From NCBI GenBank assembly GCA_018651745.1, contig JABIDL010000031.1:1-64000 (forward strand): 64,000 bases of DNA. Reading direction: 5' to 3'. Each line of letters opens with the position of its first letter. Positions within the stretch are counted from its first letter, which is position 1. A program made the translations under genes and the position numbers. Below are positions 10,150 to 32,835 of the stretch, piece after piece. The stretch is from Candidatus Neomarinimicrobiota bacterium (GTDB lineage: Bacteria > Fidelibacterota > Marinisomatia > Marinisomatales > TCS55). The notes under the pieces were generated by a model. That model saw only the letters and a program-made list of their open reading frames with translations. It was not told where the DNA came from and ran no database searches.

Positions 10150-10947
10150 ATGAATTCCAACCTCTATACTATCAATGTTTCCGTAGCAAACCTGTATGAG
10201 AGACCTGATTTCAATTCTCCGGTTGTAACACAGGGACTTTTAGGGGAAGAGTGTGATATCCTTGATGAAAAAAATAATTGGGTTAAAATCCGTCAATGGG
10301 ATAAATATGTTAGCTGGATGAATCGATTCTCTGGATTTGCGAATACCAAACATTATTCAGGTTCGCATTTCGTTATGGATTTGCATGGAATTGTATTCCA
10401 AAATATCGCTCATACCATTCCAATTCGCGATGTGACCTTTGGCTCCAAGTTGGATGCAGTTCCTTTGGATGAAGCAAATACCTATTCGGTCCAATTACCC
10501 GATGGGTCTGATGGGTATTACCGAGGCGATTTAATGCACAATTTCCCCGACCCCACGCGGGAGGAACTGGTGCTTACGGCAAAACGATTTTTGGGATCTC
10601 CTTATATTTGGGGCGGAAAGTCTCCCAAAGGATTTGATTGTTCCGGATTTGTTCAGACAGTTTTCCACTCTTTAGGAATTGATTTGCCCAGAGATGCCAT
10701 CCAACAGTACGAATGTTTAAAGGTAGCAACTGTTGAGTTAAATCAATCTTTATTGGGCGACCTTCATTTTTTTGGAACAGAAGAGTCGATCACTCATGTA
10801 GGGATGGTCGTGGAAGGAAATACATTTATCCATACTCAAGGGTATGTAAAGGAAGAGTCTCTGGATGCGCATTCCACAATGGCAAATATGACTTTAATCG
10901 AAAAACGAATAGCAACCTGTTCAATTGCAGAGGTATTACTGGCGTGA
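10150..10947 (+). CDS. NlpC/P60 family peptidase with SH3-like N-terminal region
   Basis: A 265-residue cysteine peptidase of the NlpC/P60 family, related to YkfC-type gamma-D-glutamyl-diamino-acid endopeptidases that trim peptidoglycan peptides. Residues 1-125 resemble two bacterial SH3 modules. The catalytic domain has the Cys in FDCSGF (C164) and the His in THVGM (H216), followed by a third polar residue near NTFIHTQG. I see no signal peptide, so it may act on recycled peptides in the cytoplasm or be exported by another route. Its stop overlaps the GTG of the next gene by four bases (GTGA). Confidence 0.88.
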   Translation: MNSNLYTINVSVANLYERPDFNSPVVTQGLLGEECDILDEKNNWVKIRQWDKYVSWMNRFSGFANTKHYSGSHFVMDLHGIVFQNIAHTIPIRDVTFGSKLDAVPLDEANTYSVQLPDGSDGYYRGDLMHNFPDPTREELVLTAKRFLGSPYIWGGKSPKGFDCSGFVQTVFHSLGIDLPRDAIQQYECLKVATVELNQSLLGDLHFFGTEESITHVGMVVEGNTFIHTQGYVKEESLDAHSTMANMTLIEKRIATCSIAEVLLA

Positions 10948-11489
10948 CATTGCAAAATGGATATCAGAAGAATGGTTCATTATTGAATCAAGCAGTTTTG
11001 GTGCTGAACACAAACTATTCCCCCTTGACGATTTGCACAGCACGGCGTGCGATTTGTTTAGATTATCTAAATAAGGTGGAAATTCTGGAATCCTATGGAG
11101 AAGAAGTTCATTCTCCATCTGTTTCTCTGCATCTGCCAAGCATTGTAAAATTAAGAGATTTTGTGAATTTCAATAGCATGAGTGTTGCCTTAAGTAGAAG
11201 AAATATCCTTCTTAGGGACGATCATAATTGTCAATATTGTTCAACAAAATCCGGTCCGTTTACGATTGATCATATTGTCCCGAAAGAACGCGGAGGTTCA
11301 GATTCATGGGAAAATTTGGTCACAGCTTGTCAACCTTGCAATAGAACAAAGGGAAACCGTACACCCGAAGAAGCAAAAATGCCCTTAAACAGGAACCCTA
11401 GAAAACCGAATAGAATACATTACTTTCAACAATTCATTAAGGACAAACAGGTGTCTTGGCGCCCTTATTTATTTTTAGATCCATTTTAA
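10944..11489 (+). CDS. HNH endonuclease domain protein
   Basis: A 181-residue protein. The N-terminal half (AVLVLNTNYSPLTICTARRAI) is the conserved region that accompanies a widespread class of stand-alone HNH proteins. The C-terminal half is an HNH zinc-finger nuclease: CQYC, then IDHIVPKERGGSDSWENLVTAC and PCNRTKG, giving two Cys pairs and the His-Asn-His core. The biological target of this class is unknown; it is often found in housekeeping contexts rather than in restriction systems. The GTG start overlaps the NlpC/P60 stop by four bases. trpS follows after 19 bases. Confidence 0.85.
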   Translation: MTLQNGYQKNGSLLNQAVLVLNTNYSPLTICTARRAICLDYLNKVEILESYGEEVHSPSVSLHLPSIVKLRDFVNFNSMSVALSRRNILLRDDHNCQYCSTKSGPFTIDHIVPKERGGSDSWENLVTACQPCNRTKGNRTPEEAKMPLNRNPRKPNRIHYFQQFIKDKQVSWRPYLFLDPF

Positions 11490-21301: not shown

Positions 21302-22621
21302 ATGAAAAAAATTACAGTCATCGGAACAGGTTATGTTGGGTTGGTGAGCGGCGCAGGTATTTCGGATTTTGGGCATTCCGTAACTTGTGTTGACATTGAT
21401 GAATCAAAAATTTCATCATTAGAAAATGGTAAAATTCCAATCTATGAGCAAGGTTTAGAATCCTTAGTAAAACGAAACGTTGAAGCAAAGAGACTCTTTT
21501 TTTCGAGCAATGTAGCTGCGGAAGTTGAAAAAGCAGATGTTGTGTTTATTGCTGTGGGAACCCCTCAAGATAACAACGGTACGGCAGATATATCCGCGGT
21601 GTTAAAAGCATCCGAAACGATTGGTTCATCTTTGAATGGATATAAAGTCATATGCACCAAAAGCACGGTTCCCATTGGTACCGGACGAAAAGTCATTGAG
21701 GCAATAAAAAATAATGCAGGCTCATCTGCGATGTTTGACTATGTTTCCAATCCTGAATTTTTACGGGAGGGTGCAGCGGTACAGGATTTCACCCATCCGG
21801 ACCGCGTGGTTATTGGTGCGGAAACTCAAAAAGCGTTTGAATTCATGAAAGATGTGTATCATCCGCTTTACATTAACGAAACTCCTATCATTCACACGAA
21901 TATTGAGACTGCAGAAATGATAAAATATGCGAGCAATGCTTTTCTTGCACTCAAAATAAGTTACATCAATGAAATAGCAAATTTTTGTGAAGAAGTAAAC
22001 GCAGATGTTTTTCATGTTGCCAAGGCGATGGGTTTGGACGGTAGAATTAGTCCTAAATTTTTACATCCAGGTCCAGGCTATGGCGGATCTTGTTTCCCAA
22101 AAGATACGAATGCTCTTGCTTCTCAGGCAGAATCAGCCGGTGTCCCGCTTAAAACTATTCAAGGCGCGATTGATGCAAATACCAATCAAAAATCCAGAAT
22201 GGTTGATAAATTAAGAATATTACTAGATGACTCTTTTAATGGAAAAAGGATTGCAGTTCTCGGTCTTAGCTTTAAACCCGAGACTGACGATGTTCGCGAA
22301 TCATCTTCTATTTCGATGATATCTGCACTATTGAATGAAAGCGCTACGGTTTGTGCATATGATCCTGTATCTAATGATAATATGTCATCATTCTTTTCCA
22401 AAGTGTCCTATCAAAATTCAGTATACGACGCTGTAAAAGATGCTAACGCTGCAGTAGTAATGACCGATTGGAACGAGTTTCGGAGTATGGATATTCCTCG
22501 TATTAAATCACTGATGAAAACTGCGGTTATTCTAGATACGAGAAATATCTTAAATATTACTGAATTAGATGAAAACGGAATAGTGTATGATAATGTTGGC
22601 CGGAAGCCCAGGGCAAAGTGA
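21302..22621 (+). CDS. ugd: UDP-glucose/GDP-mannose 6-dehydrogenase family
   Basis: A 439-residue NAD-dependent enzyme that oxidises C6 of a nucleotide sugar to a uronic acid, most likely UDP-glucose to UDP-glucuronate. The Rossmann motif GTGYVGLVSG opens the protein. The catalytic Cys is in YGGSCFPKDT (C264). The C-terminal UDP-binding domain (LGLSFKPETDDVRESSS) is intact. It is the first gene of the polysaccharide locus. The upstream 34 bases are nearly all A and T, with TATA-like stretches that could be a promoter. Exact sugar specificity (glucose, GlcNAc or ManNAc) is uncertain. Confidence 0.92.
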   Translation: MKKITVIGTGYVGLVSGAGISDFGHSVTCVDIDESKISSLENGKIPIYEQGLESLVKRNVEAKRLFFSSNVAAEVEKADVVFIAVGTPQDNNGTADISAVLKASETIGSSLNGYKVICTKSTVPIGTGRKVIEAIKNNAGSSAMFDYVSNPEFLREGAAVQDFTHPDRVVIGAETQKAFEFMKDVYHPLYINETPIIHTNIETAEMIKYASNAFLALKISYINEIANFCEEVNADVFHVAKAMGLDGRISPKFLHPGPGYGGSCFPKDTNALASQAESAGVPLKTIQGAIDANTNQKSRMVDKLRILLDDSFNGKRIAVLGLSFKPETDDVRESSSISMISALLNESATVCAYDPVSNDNMSSFFSKVSYQNSVYDAVKDANAAVVMTDWNEFRSMDIPRIKSLMKTAVILDTRNILNITELDENGIVYDNVGRKPRAK

Positions 22622-23646
22622 TGACGTATAAATATATAAAATTTATTTTAATCGGATTCATCTTTTTTATTTCTAAATCAAATGCGCAGGATGACAATAA
22701 TTACAAAGGCACAATTGATCCAAAAAAATATGGATGGCAGGAAGATTTGGACGAAGAAAATCAATTGCAAAACCAAGTTGATTACGAATATATATCGTTG
22801 GAGAAAGCCATTGATCCGAATACATATATTTTAGGTCCGGGTGATGTGCTTGGAATTAATATCATTTCATCAAAATCTATGAGTTATTCACTTAGAATTC
22901 TGCCGTCCGGTGACATTTTAATCCCAACCGTCGGTTCGTTATCGCTACATGGTAAAACACTTCAAACGTCTATTCAAATTATCCATTCGTATATCCAAAA
23001 GAATGCATTTCCAAATTCAAAGATTTCGATTTCCCTAGAAAATATCAAACGATTCAAAGTTCAAATTTCTGGTGCAGTTCATATTCCAGGGTTTATTGAA
23101 GTTACCGGAGTGTCGAGATTGTTGGATGCTGTAGAATTAGCTGGCGGTGTACAAAAATATGCAAAATCTAATTTGATTACAGTGATTCGAGATGGTAATT
23201 CTTCGCAATATCACCCAGGTAAATTCTTAATCACAGGAGATTTAAAACATAATCCAGTATTAAAAGAAAAAGATATAATTCATGTATCGTTTGACAGAAA
23301 TTTTGATACCGAGAATGAGGATTTATCAGACTATAATTTGAGTCAGGTCCTGGTGATAGGTTTTGTACAAGTTCCCGGTGGTTTTCGGCATATACCTGGA
23401 TATAAAGTTCGAGATTATATTGCACTTCGGGGTGGCCCTACAGAATCAGGAAGCTTAACGGGAGCTCGCGTTGTAAGAAAGGATGGGACGGTGCTGTCAG
23501 GCGCATTAAATGAATCGGTATATCCTGGGGATATTATTGAAGTACCTGCTACTTTTCAATATCGATTGTTCGGGAAAACGAGTGCTACGCAAATTATTTC
23601 AGCATTTTTATCCATTTATTTAGCCTATGAAGCAACGTTACGCTGA
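22621..23646 (+). CDS. Polysaccharide export protein, Wza/SLBB type
   Basis: A protein of about 341 residues with a signal peptide ending near SNAQ (no lipobox Cys). A Poly_export domain (about 50-130, YILGPGDVLGINI, GDILIPTVGSLSL) follows, then two SLBB beta-grasp domains (about 142-190 and 240-290, each opening with VQISGAV or VLVIGFV). The C-terminus is hydrophobic (IISAFLSIYLAYEA). This is the outer-membrane exit channel family for capsule or exopolysaccharide. GTG at 22618 and ATG at 22621 are adjacent; the ATG gives a 1-base overlap with the ugd stop. Confidence 0.88.
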   Translation: MTYKYIKFILIGFIFFISKSNAQDDNNYKGTIDPKKYGWQEDLDEENQLQNQVDYEYISLEKAIDPNTYILGPGDVLGINIISSKSMSYSLRILPSGDILIPTVGSLSLHGKTLQTSIQIIHSYIQKNAFPNSKISISLENIKRFKVQISGAVHIPGFIEVTGVSRLLDAVELAGGVQKYAKSNLITVIRDGNSSQYHPGKFLITGDLKHNPVLKEKDIIHVSFDRNFDTENEDLSDYNLSQVLVIGFVQVPGGFRHIPGYKVRDYIALRGGPTESGSLTGARVVRKDGTVLSGALNESVYPGDIIEVPATFQYRLFGKTSATQIISAFLSIYLAYEATLR

Positions 23647-23652
23647 TTAATT

Positions 23653-24978
23653 ATGAAATTAACAGATCACGAACAAAAAATCCTTGAGCTGATTCAAAAG
23701 CATCCTGAAATCCTTTCAGAAACAAAGTCAAGAGAACATTTCGCTAATAAAATTGGCCTGTCCGAAAAAACACTTAGAAACAGAATAGGTGAATTGAGAA
23801 GACTTAATTTAATTGAAGAATTAGAACCGACCTCATCCGTTTATAAACAAAAACACAGATCTAATTTGGGGATTCAAACGATTGAATTAGATAATGCATT
23901 TGCCTCTATAATGAGGCATAAAAAGGTTTTCCTAAACATTTGGTTAACTATAACACTTATCTTGGGATCAACTGCCTTTGTATTGCCAAAATGGTACGAG
24001 GGAAGAGCGGTTATTCTTCCTCCATCTAATGAATCGTCTCAGTTTGGAACTGGCGGACTTGGAGGATTACTGGGAATGGGGGGATTGATTGATGTATTCT
24101 CGAACACCGGTGGAGGTCAAGATAGGTTTTTGGCAATTCTTAAGAGCGATAGATTATTACAAATACTTGAGGAAAAATATGATTTTCAATCCAAATACGG
24201 AACGGATGATTTAGAGGCAACACTTGATAAACTAGGTAAAAAAATAACCATTATAATTGAAGATGAAAATCAAATAGTCATTTCGGTATTGGATCCAGAA
24301 CAAAATCAAGTTGCAAATATTACCAATGGAACTGTTCGTATACTCGATTCCCTAAATATTGTTTTAAGTAACACACAGGCGCGAGGATCGAGATTGTTTA
24401 TTGAAGATCGGGTTAATGAGGTACTGGATTCGCTCAAAAGTCTTGAAATTCAATTGACTGAATTTATGGAAACTGAAGGTGTACTCAGTCTTGAGGATCA
24501 GGTGTCGGTTGGAGTGGAAAGAGCAGCAGAGTTGCAGGCACTAATTATGTCGAAAGAAGTGGCATTGTCAGTTGCAGAACAGATGATGGATACAAATCAA
24601 CCCAAGTTGAAACAATGGCGCCATGAGTTAAGTCAGTTAAAAAAAGATTTTAATGAATTTTTCAAAAGTGATTCTAACAATCAACTATTGCCGAGTTTTT
24701 CAAAAGTGCCAAAGCTGGCGACAAAGCTTACAAGACTCCAACGCGCAGTTGAATATCATGTAAAACTTCTAGAATTTTTAGGGCCTCAATATGAACAGTC
24801 AAAAATTGATGAGGTAAAGGACATTCCAACACTTCAGGTTTTAGATTGGGCAATACGACCTGAAAATGAAGCACGTCCTCGGAAAATCTTAATCATTGTA
24901 GGAGGATTCATCCTTGGATTTTTTCTGGCTTACTTTTGGGTTTATATAAAGGACTTTAAAACCAAATACCAAATTTGA
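23653..24978 (+). CDS. Wzz/GumC-like chain-length protein with N-terminal winged helix
   Basis: A 441-residue polysaccharide co-polymerase-like protein. Two membrane helices (about residues 92-111 and 413-432) bracket a periplasmic region with a long coiled coil (about 255-375), and a Pro-rich segment precedes the second helix, as in Wzz and GumC. There is no C-terminal tyrosine kinase. The unusual part is residues 1-60, which look like a winged helix-turn-helix (HEQKILELI, FANKIGLSEKTLRNRIGEL, RRLNLIEEL) and would face the cytoplasm. A Gly-rich segment (about 132-150) follows the first helix. The domain fusion is inferred from sequence pattern. Confidence 0.78.
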   Translation: MKLTDHEQKILELIQKHPEILSETKSREHFANKIGLSEKTLRNRIGELRRLNLIEELEPTSSVYKQKHRSNLGIQTIELDNAFASIMRHKKVFLNIWLTITLILGSTAFVLPKWYEGRAVILPPSNESSQFGTGGLGGLLGMGGLIDVFSNTGGGQDRFLAILKSDRLLQILEEKYDFQSKYGTDDLEATLDKLGKKITIIIEDENQIVISVLDPEQNQVANITNGTVRILDSLNIVLSNTQARGSRLFIEDRVNEVLDSLKSLEIQLTEFMETEGVLSLEDQVSVGVERAAELQALIMSKEVALSVAEQMMDTNQPKLKQWRHELSQLKKDFNEFFKSDSNNQLLPSFSKVPKLATKLTRLQRAVEYHVKLLEFLGPQYEQSKIDEVKDIPTLQVLDWAIRPENEARPRKILIIVGGFILGFFLAYFWVYIKDFKTKYQI

Positions 24979-25000: not shown

Positions 25001-26245
25001 ATGTTAAGTGTAATTGGAATTATAACAATTTTTCTTATTGCTGGGATTTTCATCGTATCCTGGTTTAAAATAAATCCTACTTTAGGCACAATCCTTGCTG
25101 TTAGTTTTGCTTTACGTGCGATTGTTGTTCTTTTGCAGGAATTATTTCAAATTGCACCTTATACGTGGGATGAAGGATTATTTATGACCATGGGAATTAA
25201 GGTAAAACATTTTTTAGATGGGTCCCGTTCGTCTCTACCATTTAGAACGCTTGCCGGGGTACCAGCTTACGGATCATTGCTTGGAGGTCTTTTTTATCTC
25301 TATGAAGTGGATACAATTTTACCTCGGATATTAAATGTTCTTTTTGGAACCGGTGCTGTATTCTTGACTTGGAAACTATCCGCCTTAGTTGGTTTAAAAA
25401 ATAAGTATTGTTTGTTAATGGCTACGATTGTCGGATTTACACCAAGTTATATTTTGTATTCAGCCTTGATTATGCGGGATATGCTGATTTGGTTATTGTT
25501 GTTGGTTTTGCTATACCTTTGGGTGAAGTTTATTCAAGATCTCGACTCAAAATCATTCTGGATTGCTTTTATACCGGTTGCTATGCTAACAATTTTGAGA
25601 CCTCAATATGCACCGGTCTTCGCGATAATTCTTGGATTTATTGCTTTTAGTTATGCTCAGAGATTACGATTTAAATGGAAGCAAATATCCTTACCCGGAT
25701 TACAGTATATATTATTCTCTATTTTTTTATCCGTAGTTTTAGTTGGGAGTATTTTTCTGATATTATCTGAAATTGCCCGTTGGGAAAATTCTGATGTTCT
25801 GGACTACTTGGTTAGCCAGCATCATTGGAGAACCCAAGGTGGAGCAGCCTATTTAATCGATCAAGAATTCACCAATTTATTGGATGTGGTGTGGTTCTTC
25901 CCCTTAAGATTTATTCATTTTACATTTGGTCCTTTTTTATGGAATAGCGGTTCGATTCAAATGATGGCTAGTGCAATGGAAGCCCTAGTTGGAACAATAT
26001 TCTTTTTACTGCTGGTTTTTTATTCACCAACCTTATTTAAAAGTAACAATAGCAATCGTTTGGGTATTATACTTTTAATAGTATTCGCATTAATCAATAT
26101 TGCTGCGGCCAGCATTATCGACTCTAATTATGGAACAGCCATGCGCCATCGTATGGTATTTATGCCTTTTATTTTTATGGCTGTTTTGTGGTTACGACAG
26201 CAGAGAATTATATTGAAGCAAAATAATGATAGTTTATTAATATAA
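25001..26245 (+). CDS. GT-C membrane glycosyltransferase (PMT/ArnT-like)
   Basis: A 414-residue protein with about ten membrane helices. The first large loop has the Asp-Glu pair TWDEGLF (D57, E58), placed as in GT39/GT83 enzymes that use polyprenyl-phosphate sugars. A second loop carries LIMRDMLIW. It probably adds a sugar on the outer face of the inner membrane during polysaccharide assembly. A Wzy-type polymerase is an alternative, because no other Wzy candidate is seen in the locus. Confidence 0.65.
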   Translation: MLSVIGIITIFLIAGIFIVSWFKINPTLGTILAVSFALRAIVVLLQELFQIAPYTWDEGLFMTMGIKVKHFLDGSRSSLPFRTLAGVPAYGSLLGGLFYLYEVDTILPRILNVLFGTGAVFLTWKLSALVGLKNKYCLLMATIVGFTPSYILYSALIMRDMLIWLLLLVLLYLWVKFIQDLDSKSFWIAFIPVAMLTILRPQYAPVFAIILGFIAFSYAQRLRFKWKQISLPGLQYILFSIFLSVVLVGSIFLILSEIARWENSDVLDYLVSQHHWRTQGGAAYLIDQEFTNLLDVVWFFPLRFIHFTFGPFLWNSGSIQMMASAMEALVGTIFFLLLVFYSPTLFKSNNSNRLGIILLIVFALINIAAASIIDSNYGTAMRHRMVFMPFIFMAVLWLRQQRIILKQNNDSLLI

Positions 26246-26257
26246 AAATGATTTGGA

Positions 26258-27475
26258 ATGAAATTTAAATTAATCCACCATATAGGCGGTGCTTCCATTT
26301 TAGTCATTCTAGGTTCATTGGCTTCCTTTGGGGCAAATGTTATCTTAGGAAGATCCTTGCCTCAGGACGCATTTGGGACTTTTTCACTTTTCCGGTCAGT
26401 CATGTTTTATCTGCCTATTTTTGCTTTCCTTGGGTTTGGAAATGCTTTGATAAGGTTTTCCCGGGAAAATGAATTTTCTAACATCAATTGGAAGTTGCCT
26501 CTCAGAAAGATGGATTTTATTGCTGCTGGTGTTTTATTATTGGCTGTTTTAGTAATTCAAAGAATATATCCATTTTCTTTCATCGAGTCGATGTTGTTGG
26601 GAATCGCGGCATGGTTATTCGCTCGATCCCTAATAACTAATTCCATCCTGCGGATCATGCGAAAAATGGTTTTAGGTCAATTCACATCTATTGTATGGCG
26701 GTACATATTTTTCATTTTTCTTGTGGTAGCAGCAATTTGGTTTGAGCTTCAATTGGAATTTGTATTAATACTCTTTTTCTTGTCATTTGTCGTTATGTTT
26801 GTGATTGCGAAATTTATAGATCGAAATATTCAAGTTGGTAAAAATTCAGTCCGGTTAAAAAAGATTTTCGATTATGGTTCTACATTATTTGTCATCAACA
26901 TTATTACTATTTTGATGACACAAATGGACAAACTCATTGTATCCATGACTTTAGGGACAGTTTCGGTTGGAATTTATACTGGAGTTTCTTTGGTAGCTCT
27001 TACCGTCTTCAATCTTGCCGGTACCACAATAGGCAATGTATTAATGCCACATTTAGCCCAAGGGAAAAGAATCCAACTTATCGAATTTTTATTATATTTT
27101 TTCATCATTCCCGTTTTTTTAATAATTTTTGCATTTCTAAGCATTGAACAATTGAACACAATATTATTTGACGGAAAATATTCCGGATTTAATCAGTTAC
27201 TTCAACTTTCCATTGTTTTAGGATTAATGCAATATTACCACAATCTTATCGAATTTTCTCTTGGAGGCCTCAGCAGTGAAAGGAGCTTAAAATTATTTTT
27301 GGGAACAATATTATTTTCATTATTATTATTGTTTGTTCTATCATTTATACTGGTTGCCAAACATGGTCTTGTAGGGATTATAATGGGATGCATTGTTGCT
27401 TGGCTATTTAGAAACTTTGTGGGCGCCATACTGCTGGGAAAAATTTTGATAAAAGAAAAGGTGTTATTCGAATGA
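26258..27475 (+). CDS. Wzx-like oligosaccharide flippase
   Basis: A 405-residue protein with about twelve hydrophobic helices belonging to the polysaccharide-synthesis MATE-like (MOP) superfamily. The N-terminal IHHIGGASILVILGSLASFGANVILGRSLPQDAFGTFSLFRS is the characteristic first-helix region (G-R-x-L-x-x-x-x-F-G). It would flip undecaprenyl-linked repeat units to the periplasm. The gene lies 12 bases after the GT-C gene and its end faces the reverse-strand ATP-grasp gene. Confidence 0.88.
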   Translation: MKFKLIHHIGGASILVILGSLASFGANVILGRSLPQDAFGTFSLFRSVMFYLPIFAFLGFGNALIRFSRENEFSNINWKLPLRKMDFIAAGVLLLAVLVIQRIYPFSFIESMLLGIAAWLFARSLITNSILRIMRKMVLGQFTSIVWRYIFFIFLVVAAIWFELQLEFVLILFFLSFVVMFVIAKFIDRNIQVGKNSVRLKKIFDYGSTLFVINIITILMTQMDKLIVSMTLGTVSVGIYTGVSLVALTVFNLAGTTIGNVLMPHLAQGKRIQLIEFLLYFFIIPVFLIIFAFLSIEQLNTILFDGKYSGFNQLLQLSIVLGLMQYYHNLIEFSLGGLSSERSLKLFLGTILFSLLLLFVLSFILVAKHGLVGIIMGCIVAWLFRNFVGAILLGKILIKEKVLFE

Positions 27476-31233: not shown

Positions 31234-31302
31234 GAGAATTTCTTGATTAACCAAAAATCAAATCATAACTTCGGGTAACCCTCAAGGAGTATTATCGAAA
31301 TT

Positions 31303-31398
31303 AAACGCTAACAGTTTTTCCAGTTAAACAGGAGCCAAAACATGGATAGTCTGCATAGCGTTTCCCCAACACCAGATGTGACCGCCACCACGCGGTAG
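31303..31398 (+). promoter_or_regulatory. Structured leader upstream of the sugar-phosphate transferase
   Basis: AAACGCTA (31303-31310) and TAGCGTTT (31356-31363) are perfect complements. Inside them CAG (31312-31314) pairs with CTG (31351-31353), then TTTT (31315-31318) with AAAA (31337-31340), making a nested stem. Next comes a separate hairpin ACCGC (31381-31385) / GCGGT (31392-31396). The nested stem encloses an AGGAG Shine-Dalgarno sequence and the ATG of an 18-codon frame. I recognise no known riboswitch class. Confidence 0.4.
31342..31398 (+). CDS. Possible 18-residue leader peptide
   Basis: A short frame MDSLHSVSPTPDVTATTR with AGGAG seven bases before the ATG, a better ribosome site than almost any gene here has. 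Its stop codon lies in the GCGGTAG arm of the second leader hairpin. It ends 27 bases before the transferase gene. No run of one regulatory amino acid is obvious. It may instead be chance within a structured RNA. Confidence 0.3.
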   Translation: MDSLHSVSPTPDVTATTR

Positions 31399-31425
31399 AT
31401 TGATTCCGGTATAGTATATTCAATT

Positions 31426-32835
31426 ATGACATCTGAATTTGTACATTCATTGCGCATTCGAGTCCCCAAGTGGATTATTTCTTGGGCGTTCCTGATTTCG
31501 GATACTATAGCGGGCATCCTTGCATTTTATATAGTTTTTCTTCCTGCTTCCCAGGAATTGCAATTGGATCCGATGTTTGTAGTTGGAATTTTCGTTGTCA
31601 TTACGGTTGCTTGGGCTTGTTTGTTTTTTATTCTTGGTTTATATAAGGCTACATCAGATGTATCCCGATTTGGTGAAATTCAACGGGCGATAATTGCTTC
31701 ATTTTCCTGTATTGTCTTAATGATTTTTCTTCAAGCGGTGCAAATCGTAACCCTACCCTATGAACCGGCTGTGGTACTCAATTACTGGTTATTTTTTATT
31801 TTATGTTTCAGTTTGGTGCGATTTAGTAGTAGATCATTACAGAAAGCCATGATAAGAAAAGGGATTGGGCTAGAAAAAATGATCATTGTTGGTCATAATC
31901 CGAGAGGAGAAAAAGTTGCCAGAGATATTGAAAAACATCCTGATTTTGGGTATGATTTGGTTGGCTTTGTACAGATTAAGGAAGAAGAAAATACAGATGA
32001 ATTCGGGAACGTTCTTGGAACCGATGCTGACCTAAAAAATATTATAGTCAAAAATCAAATTGCTCATGTTGTTTTAGCGCCTGAAAAATCCGATCATTTT
32101 AGGTTGATGTCTCTTTTAACGCAGGCAAATGGCGTACCGACATCCATTAAAATTGTACCTGATCTTTACGAAGCCATTAGTGGAATGGCCCGAACGCAGC
32201 AATTATATGGTCTCCCATTAATTCAAGTTAATCCTGAACTGGAGACTTTATACAATCGACATGGGAAACGTCTCTTAGATCTTCTTATGGCCATACCAGC
32301 TTTTCTTTTATTTCTTCCCGCTTGGGTTGGTATCAGTATGGCTATTGCTTTTGATAGCAAAGGCACTATATTATATAAACAGGTGCGGGTTGGTAAAAAG
32401 CAAAAACTTTTTACTATTTATAAATTTAGATCTATGGTTCAGGACGCTGAAACAGAAACGGGTCCTGTGTGGGCTATGGAAGGTGACAACCGGATTACAA
32501 CGGTCGGTCGGTGGCTCCGTAGATTTCGTTTTGACGAAATCCCTCAGCTCATCAATGTGATTAAAGGGGAAATGAGTTTGGTTGGACCTCGACCGGAAAG
32601 ACCATCCATTATAGAACGATTAATTTTGGAATATCCTTTTTATTACCGGCGTCATTCTGTGCGTCCGGGTATCACTGGTTGGGCTCAGATAAAACATCCT
32701 TACGACCAGCGTATTGAGGATGTAAGAGAAAAATTAAAATATGATTTTTTCTATATTGAAAGTTTAACCCTCAATCTTGACATTAAAATTCTGCTGAATA
32801 CTGCTTGGGTTATGCTTTCAGGCAAAGGTAGATGA
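31426..32835 (+). CDS. Polyprenyl-phosphate sugar-1-phosphate transferase (WbaP/WcaJ-like)
   Basis: A 469-residue initiating enzyme that transfers a hexose 1-phosphate to undecaprenyl phosphate. Four N-terminal membrane helices (about residues 15-125), a CoA-binding-like Rossmann region (about 145-240), and a C-terminal bacterial sugar transferase domain (from KRLLDLLMAIPAF) are visible. The catalytic part includes YKFRSMVQDAE, RFDEIPQLINVIKGEMSLVGPRPE and RPGITGWAQ. It is the last gene of the locus and, unlike the others, has its own 190-base structured leader. Confidence 0.93.
   Translation: MTSEFVHSLRIRVPKWIISWAFLISDTIAGILAFYIVFLPASQELQLDPMFVVGIFVVITVAWACLFFILGLYKATSDVSRFGEIQRAIIASFSCIVLMIFLQAVQIVTLPYEPAVVLNYWLFFILCFSLVRFSSRSLQKAMIRKGIGLEKMIIVGHNPRGEKVARDIEKHPDFGYDLVGFVQIKEEENTDEFGNVLGTDADLKNIIVKNQIAHVVLAPEKSDHFRLMSLLTQANGVPTSIKIVPDLYEAISGMARTQQLYGLPLIQVNPELETLYNRHGKRLLDLLMAIPAFLLFLPAWVGISMAIAFDSKGTILYKQVRVGKKQKLFTIYKFRSMVQDAETETGPVWAMEGDNRITTVGRWLRRFRFDEIPQLINVIKGEMSLVGPRPERPSIIERLILEYPFYYRRHSVRPGITGWAQIKHPYDQRIEDVREKLKYDFFYIESLTLNLDIKILLNTAWVMLSGKGR

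Follow-up and report, generated by a model that had tools for sequence, protein, structure and literature searches.

Polysaccharide co-polymerases (PCPs) such as Wzz (PCP-1) and Wzc (PCP-2a) carry Wzz and GNVR domains, have two transmembrane segments (TMs) around a periplasmic coiled coil and adjoin a wza-like gene. For the most part, the known means by which cells adjust polysaccharide gene expression to what the export machine is doing are tyrosine kinases and separate regulators. In the CpsC/CpsD type of PCP system the cytoplasmic part is split off or altered. The EcpK type is reported to be a kinase-dead PCP regulator whose cytoplasmic part is likewise altered (PMC12004946). A different class of proteins, the transmembrane transcription regulators, is defined by a DNA-binding domain and a TM in one protein and is common in bacteria and archaea (PMC10269533). 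CadC, ToxR, TcpP and the archaeal ArnR consist of an N-terminal cytoplasmic domain of DNA-binding type, a linker and a membrane helix, and the bacterial three have an outside domain in the same protein.

The protein described here, HTH-Wzz, is encoded in a window of 64,000 nucleotides from Candidatus Neomarinimicrobiota (SAR406), a group of abundant, mostly uncultured ocean bacteria. It shares the listed features of Wzz and Wzc and differs from Wzc in having an N-terminal helix-turn-helix (HTH) before the first TM (TM1) and no C-terminal tyrosine kinase; the CpsC/CpsD and EcpK types keep kinase-fold partners, whereas HTH-Wzz has the HTH. Its order of N-terminal domain, linker and membrane helix is that of CadC and ArnR, and its topology by homology provides the outside domain of the bacterial regulators. 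Unlike in CadC/ToxR-type regulators, however, the outside part is a whole PCP that itself works in an export machine. We found no paper on an HTH-Wzz or HTH–PCP fusion in the open-access literature, and the main text of PMC10269533 makes no mention of Wzz; the HTH–PCP architecture, the extreme conservation of the HTH and its reuse in archaea are new here. If a PCP bore a conserved head of DNA-binding type, a single protein would provide the feedback, and the conserved HTH on a chain-length protein suggests that polysaccharide export is coupled directly to gene expression.

Domains, predicted fold and locus of HTH-Wzz

HTH-Wzz is a Wzz/Wzc-type PCP with an N-terminal HTH. Its gene (23653–24978, on the forward strand like all window features given below) has an ATG start and encodes 441 aa; we characterized it by open reading frame (ORF), Pfam, AlphaFold and Foldseek analyses. 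A preliminary description of the DNA had called it a Wzz-type protein, and both the Wzz domain (PF02706; residues 76–169, 23878–24159; E 5.8e-6, 27.0 vs. 25.5 bits) and the GNVR domain (PF13807; residues 359–434, 24727–24954; E 8e-9), which includes TM2 at about residues 413–434, were indeed over the Pfam cut-offs. The same description had placed membrane helices at about residues 92–111 and 413–432 around a coiled coil. The full-length AlphaFold model agrees, with helices 90–110 and 411–440 as membrane spans and long coiled-coil helices between them (periplasmic, residues about 217–388, 24301–24816); TM1 (residues about 90–111, 23920–23985) was assigned from the model helix and the hydropathy of homologues. 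The nearest folds of the model were Wzc, WzzE and KpsE (Foldseek E down to 4e-14, for Wzc), and the closest sequences with solved structures were Wzc kinases, over the C-terminal half. The absence of a C-terminal tyrosine kinase, also remarked on before, was borne out: the protein ends directly after TM2 with no kinase domain beyond it, and the best candidates for a BY-kinase in the same genome fell under the curated TIGR01007 cut-off. HTH-Wzz therefore has the domains, the predicted fold and the polysaccharide locus of a PCP and lacks the kinase of Wzc.

The surrounding locus comprises ugd, of the UDP-glucose/GDP-mannose dehydrogenase family (21302–22621), a wza-like export gene (Poly_export plus SLBB; 22618–23646) directly upstream of HTH-Wzz, a polytopic membrane protein with a weak PMT match that may be a Wzy or a GT-C enzyme (25001–26245), a Wzx-type flippase (Polysacc_synt; 26258–27475), transferases and a wbaP-like initiating sugar-phosphate transferase (31426–32835), the named families being Pfam assignments except for the polytopic protein. 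The wza-like gene is a neighbor kept beside HTH-Wzz in nearly all loci.

The HTH spans residues 1–55 (23653–23817). Residues 1–79 scanned alone passed the HTH_24 cut-off (22.5 vs. 21.9 bits) and gave weak Pfam matches to several further HTH families; in the full-length Pfam scan the HTH match was weak. AlphaFold modelling of residues 1–77, with 53 sequences in the alignment, gave helices at 5–16, 18–21, 24–33 and 38–50 with pLDDT about 90, and the closest solved folds were Lrp/AsnC regulators (1i1g; Foldseek probability 0.99 but E 0.12). The sequence matches, to HTH_24, HrcA, CggR, AsnC and Csa3, were singly weak and agreed with this result. The N-terminus had been proposed to be a winged helix with a recognition-like helix: the HTH and the recognition helix (residues 38–50, 23764–23802, seen in both the model and the alignments) stood, and the wing did not, as the AlphaFold models contain no beta wing after the recognition helix and no strands past residue 50. 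The predicted helix arrangement and the pattern of the recognition helix resemble those of Lrp/AsnC regulators and of HTH_24, HrcA and Csa3, making the domain a candidate DNA-binding HTH, in contrast to the OmpR-type winged helix of CadC and ToxR. It differs from Lrp/AsnC regulators in lacking a wing, in being membrane-tethered and in lacking their C-terminal RAM domain, the Wzz domain coming next instead, and the weak matches give no placement in a named family. The linker (residues 56–89, 23818–23919) is variable and, by pLDDT, largely disordered, with disorder from about residue 60 and pLDDT <50 at 58–77, so that this stretch would form a flexible tether between the HTH and TM1. Topology by homology supports a cytoplasmic HTH, as had been supposed for the N-terminus, tethered by TM1 to the PCP. 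HTH-Wzz combines a domain of DNA-binding type with at least one TM, which makes it a candidate transmembrane transcription regulator under the published definition.

Conservation and distribution of the HTH

A homologue was present in 32 of the 61 relatives' genomes searched, with most strong matches beginning at residue 1–3. Using a profile of the HTH only, we obtained a single match in the own genome and matches in 61 of 245 genomes of the phylum, all but one of them in one order and with about one copy each; among these positive genomes, no separate HTH gene was seen. Scanning 84,980 species genomes for the HTH gave 61 loci, nearly all of them HTH-Wzz fusions whose first TM lies close to residue 90, the exceptions being contig ends, masked or broken frames, probable chimaeras and three archaeal contigs. 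The recurrence of the same fusion in about 60 genomes indicates that it did not arise by chance. Two members of the order (L007 and L008) have a close Wzz homologue without the HTH in the same wza–wzz–membrane protein order, which shows the HTH to be separable from the PCP.

Within HTH-Wzz, conservation is highest in the HTH and lowest in the linker, in keeping with the conservation expected earlier for the N-terminal region. Seventeen columns were invariant in 48 full-length sequences, 13 of them within residues 1–55 (hypergeometric P 7e-10 for the excess among 41 non-redundant homologues), and the fraction of the commonest residue was 0.84 at residues 36–50 vs. 0.35–0.53 in the PCP parts. 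The motif EKTLRNR at residues 38–44 was invariant in alignments of 25 (25/25), 53 and 48 sequences, archaeal copies included. Positions of the hydrophobic core vary among I, L, M and V, and in the recognition helix, which has a net charge of +3, the polar positions are as conserved as the hydrophobic ones; the fixed motif within a varying core is the pattern expected for one shared ligand. These data leave a decayed or purely structural leftover, serving only folding or oligomerization, very improbable: relatives that lack the HTH in the same gene context imply that the PCP works without the domain, but the conservation of the HTH above all other parts excludes decay, and the polar positions of its recognition helix are held as firmly as the hydrophobic ones.

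The preliminary description had read the protein as a membrane-tethered DNA-binding sensor that links polymer export to transcription of the locus. We consider, with modest confidence, that HTH-Wzz is probably a PCP that incorporates a membrane-tethered transcription regulator. This reading draws on the order-wide fusion, the lack of a separate HTH gene, the conservation of the HTH and the invariant EKTLRNR, and on sequence and fold neighbors of the HTH that are mainly DNA-binding regulators. Under this model, the N-terminal cytoplasmic tail of a PCP of the Wzx/Wzy pathway would have become an HTH. HTH-Wzz would oligomerize as a ring of about eight subunits and set chain length, as known PCPs do, and the ring would display several HTHs on flexible linkers at the inner face of the membrane. 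The target of the HTHs would be a single conserved DNA site, with a promoter in the polysaccharide locus as its most plausible place, and the state of the co-polymerase would alter transcription in the manner of CadC/ToxR-type regulators acting from the membrane.

The invariance of the HTH, taken alone, would fit a DNA or a protein partner alike, and HTH folds in membrane machines can bind protein. The main alternative, which the preliminary description had also raised in the form of a protein-interaction wing, is possible but less likely: the ring of HTHs would make no contact with DNA and would control assembly by docking a conserved cytosolic protein, for instance an elongation factor, a phosphatase, a glycosyltransferase or WbaP through its cytosolic part. 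Such docking would suit a domain placed on the cytoplasmic face where Wzc has its kinase and predicted to have no wing, and a conserved partner explains the invariant face equally well; the mainly DNA-binding neighbors of the HTH in sequence and fold argue against it. The missing wing and the about neutral HTH of the window protein (pI 6.8 overall) also count against the regulator.

Sequences upstream of wbaP and wza

The preliminary description had pointed to the region upstream of ugd as the target of the HTH. A site there is unlikely, as the gap between ugd and the ORF ahead of it on the same strand measures just 34 bp. The 192-bp gap ahead of wbaP (31234–31425) contains, about 140 nt ahead of the gene, an order-wide conserved leader that is a candidate cis-regulatory element (AAGGAGnnnTATCG...AAACGCTAACAG...CTGnnTAGCGTTT; 31281–31403), with a further sequence block, AACGCTAACAG, after AAGGAGnnnTATCG. 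Promoter-like hexamers, TTGATT-N17-TAACTT, were read by eye ahead of it (31243–31271). The leader core is unique in its own genome and the leader has no match in Rfam, and in one family of loci (f7) a related leader lies ahead of the wza–HTH-Wzz operon. Its main hairpin has compensatory changes at three pairs, so the leader is probably an RNA element.

Strong matches to the leader (E up to 1e-5) were found in 44 Neomarinimicrobiota genomes, ahead of wbaP or wza where checked, and 38 of these genomes have the HTH, compared by hand with 61 of 245 overall. Five more HTH-positive genomes have weak matches ahead of wbaP; an HTH-less genome (G048) has none there, and several HTH-positive families have no clear copy. 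With shared ancestry as a confounder and with these leaderless families, the co-occurrence is only suggestive. The leader is the best candidate for a cis element, its link to the HTH being only correlative; its RNA-like character and its absence from several HTH-positive families weigh against the regulator.

Palindromes upstream of wbaP did not rise above shuffled sequence except for T-runs. In the divergent gap between serS and wza, a dyad, GCCCGGGC, was present in 17 of 17 loci of family f7 (e.g., L085:8075, L102:3883 and L094:6096), and looked like an operator; in most of them it lies about 60 bp ahead of the leader core, and the family of the window showed no copy. We rejected it as an operator of the HTH. 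Five other loci have matches close to wza that are coding at least in part: in L066 the match lies inside the signal-peptide codons of wza, and the remaining ones appear similar by eye. The other full palindromes in five genomes fall within ORFs. Since the dyad might just as well belong to serS and did not turn up in the window's family, it was not counted as evidence.

The palindrome and dyad searches upstream of wbaP and in the serS/wza gap thus identified no operator, a result that counts against the regulator and is as expected if the HTH docks a protein. A third function, in which the HTH binds DNA as an anchor that keeps the locus or the nucleoid close to the export complex and does not switch transcription, appears improbable: tethered, multivalent HTHs would suit it and the HTH-Wzz gene sits in the very locus to be anchored, but no array of sites was found, and a recognition helix that never varies points to a specific site more than to loose contact with DNA.

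Archaeal copies of the HTH

Three contigs titled Euryarchaeota encode a tail-anchored protein of 101 aa that lacks a Wzz domain and in which a short linker joins the HTH to a C-terminal TM (L061:5723–6076, L089:5791–6093 and L098:5359–5661). We assigned the contigs to Marine Group II from neighbor genes and record titles. The neighbors in L061, MeaB, a carboxyltransferase, cytochrome b, an FtsZ-type protein and a methylguanine methyltransferase, form a consistent archaeal-type set, and many genomes from that archaeal order share this gene arrangement. Most of the syntenic relatives have a small membrane protein with the same tail, ELNQSTYxMxWAIASLASLAIFIIYF, and without the HTH; in L122, the closest syntenic relative of L061 (neighbors 75–98% identical), the tail is present and the HTH absent. 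In a tree of 58 columns, and hence of limited resolution, the archaeal HTHs form one group (88/91) beside the bacterial family f8 (94/71). The simplest reading is a transfer from bacteria to Marine Group II, in which a resident membrane protein gained the HTH at its N-terminus; alternatively, the archaeal HTH may be ancestral and have been lost many times. A search for viral carriers of the HTH or the leader returned none.

Whether transferred or ancestral, the HTH in its archaeal hosts would still sit on a membrane anchor and face the cytoplasm, which argues for the HTH and its tether as the functional unit. Its reuse on an unrelated protein that lacks it in relatives makes the HTH look like a portable module tethered to the membrane. 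The docking of a cytosolic protein fits this less well, as the same helix sits on a non-PCP protein and the same partner would be needed there too. The membrane-tethered regulator that we favor gains from the archaeal reuse, together with the lack of a BY-kinase over the cut-off and transmembrane regulators being common. A fuller scenario, in which the HTH-Wzz ring regulates via the wbaP/wza leader, as promoter DNA or nascent RNA, and Marine Group II archaea later acquired the HTH on a tail-anchored protein, is doubtful as a whole; if true, polymer assembly would be coupled directly to transcription of the sugar locus, and a regulator module would have moved between domains of life.

A few bacterial loci from the species-wide scan had unusual features. 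Two metagenome-assembled contigs titled Chloroflexi and Legionellales (L067 and L110) carry an ordinary Neomarinimicrobiota-type HTH-Wzz and were probably mis-binned. In L099 (about 10230–11408), the HTH-Wzz frame ends after about 95 codons and the DNA beyond resembles the antisense of a flippase gene, probably reflecting a chimaera of single-cell amplification. The HTH-Wzz of L084 (9998–11677) is about 560 aa long, with some 100 extra residues between the two membrane helices.
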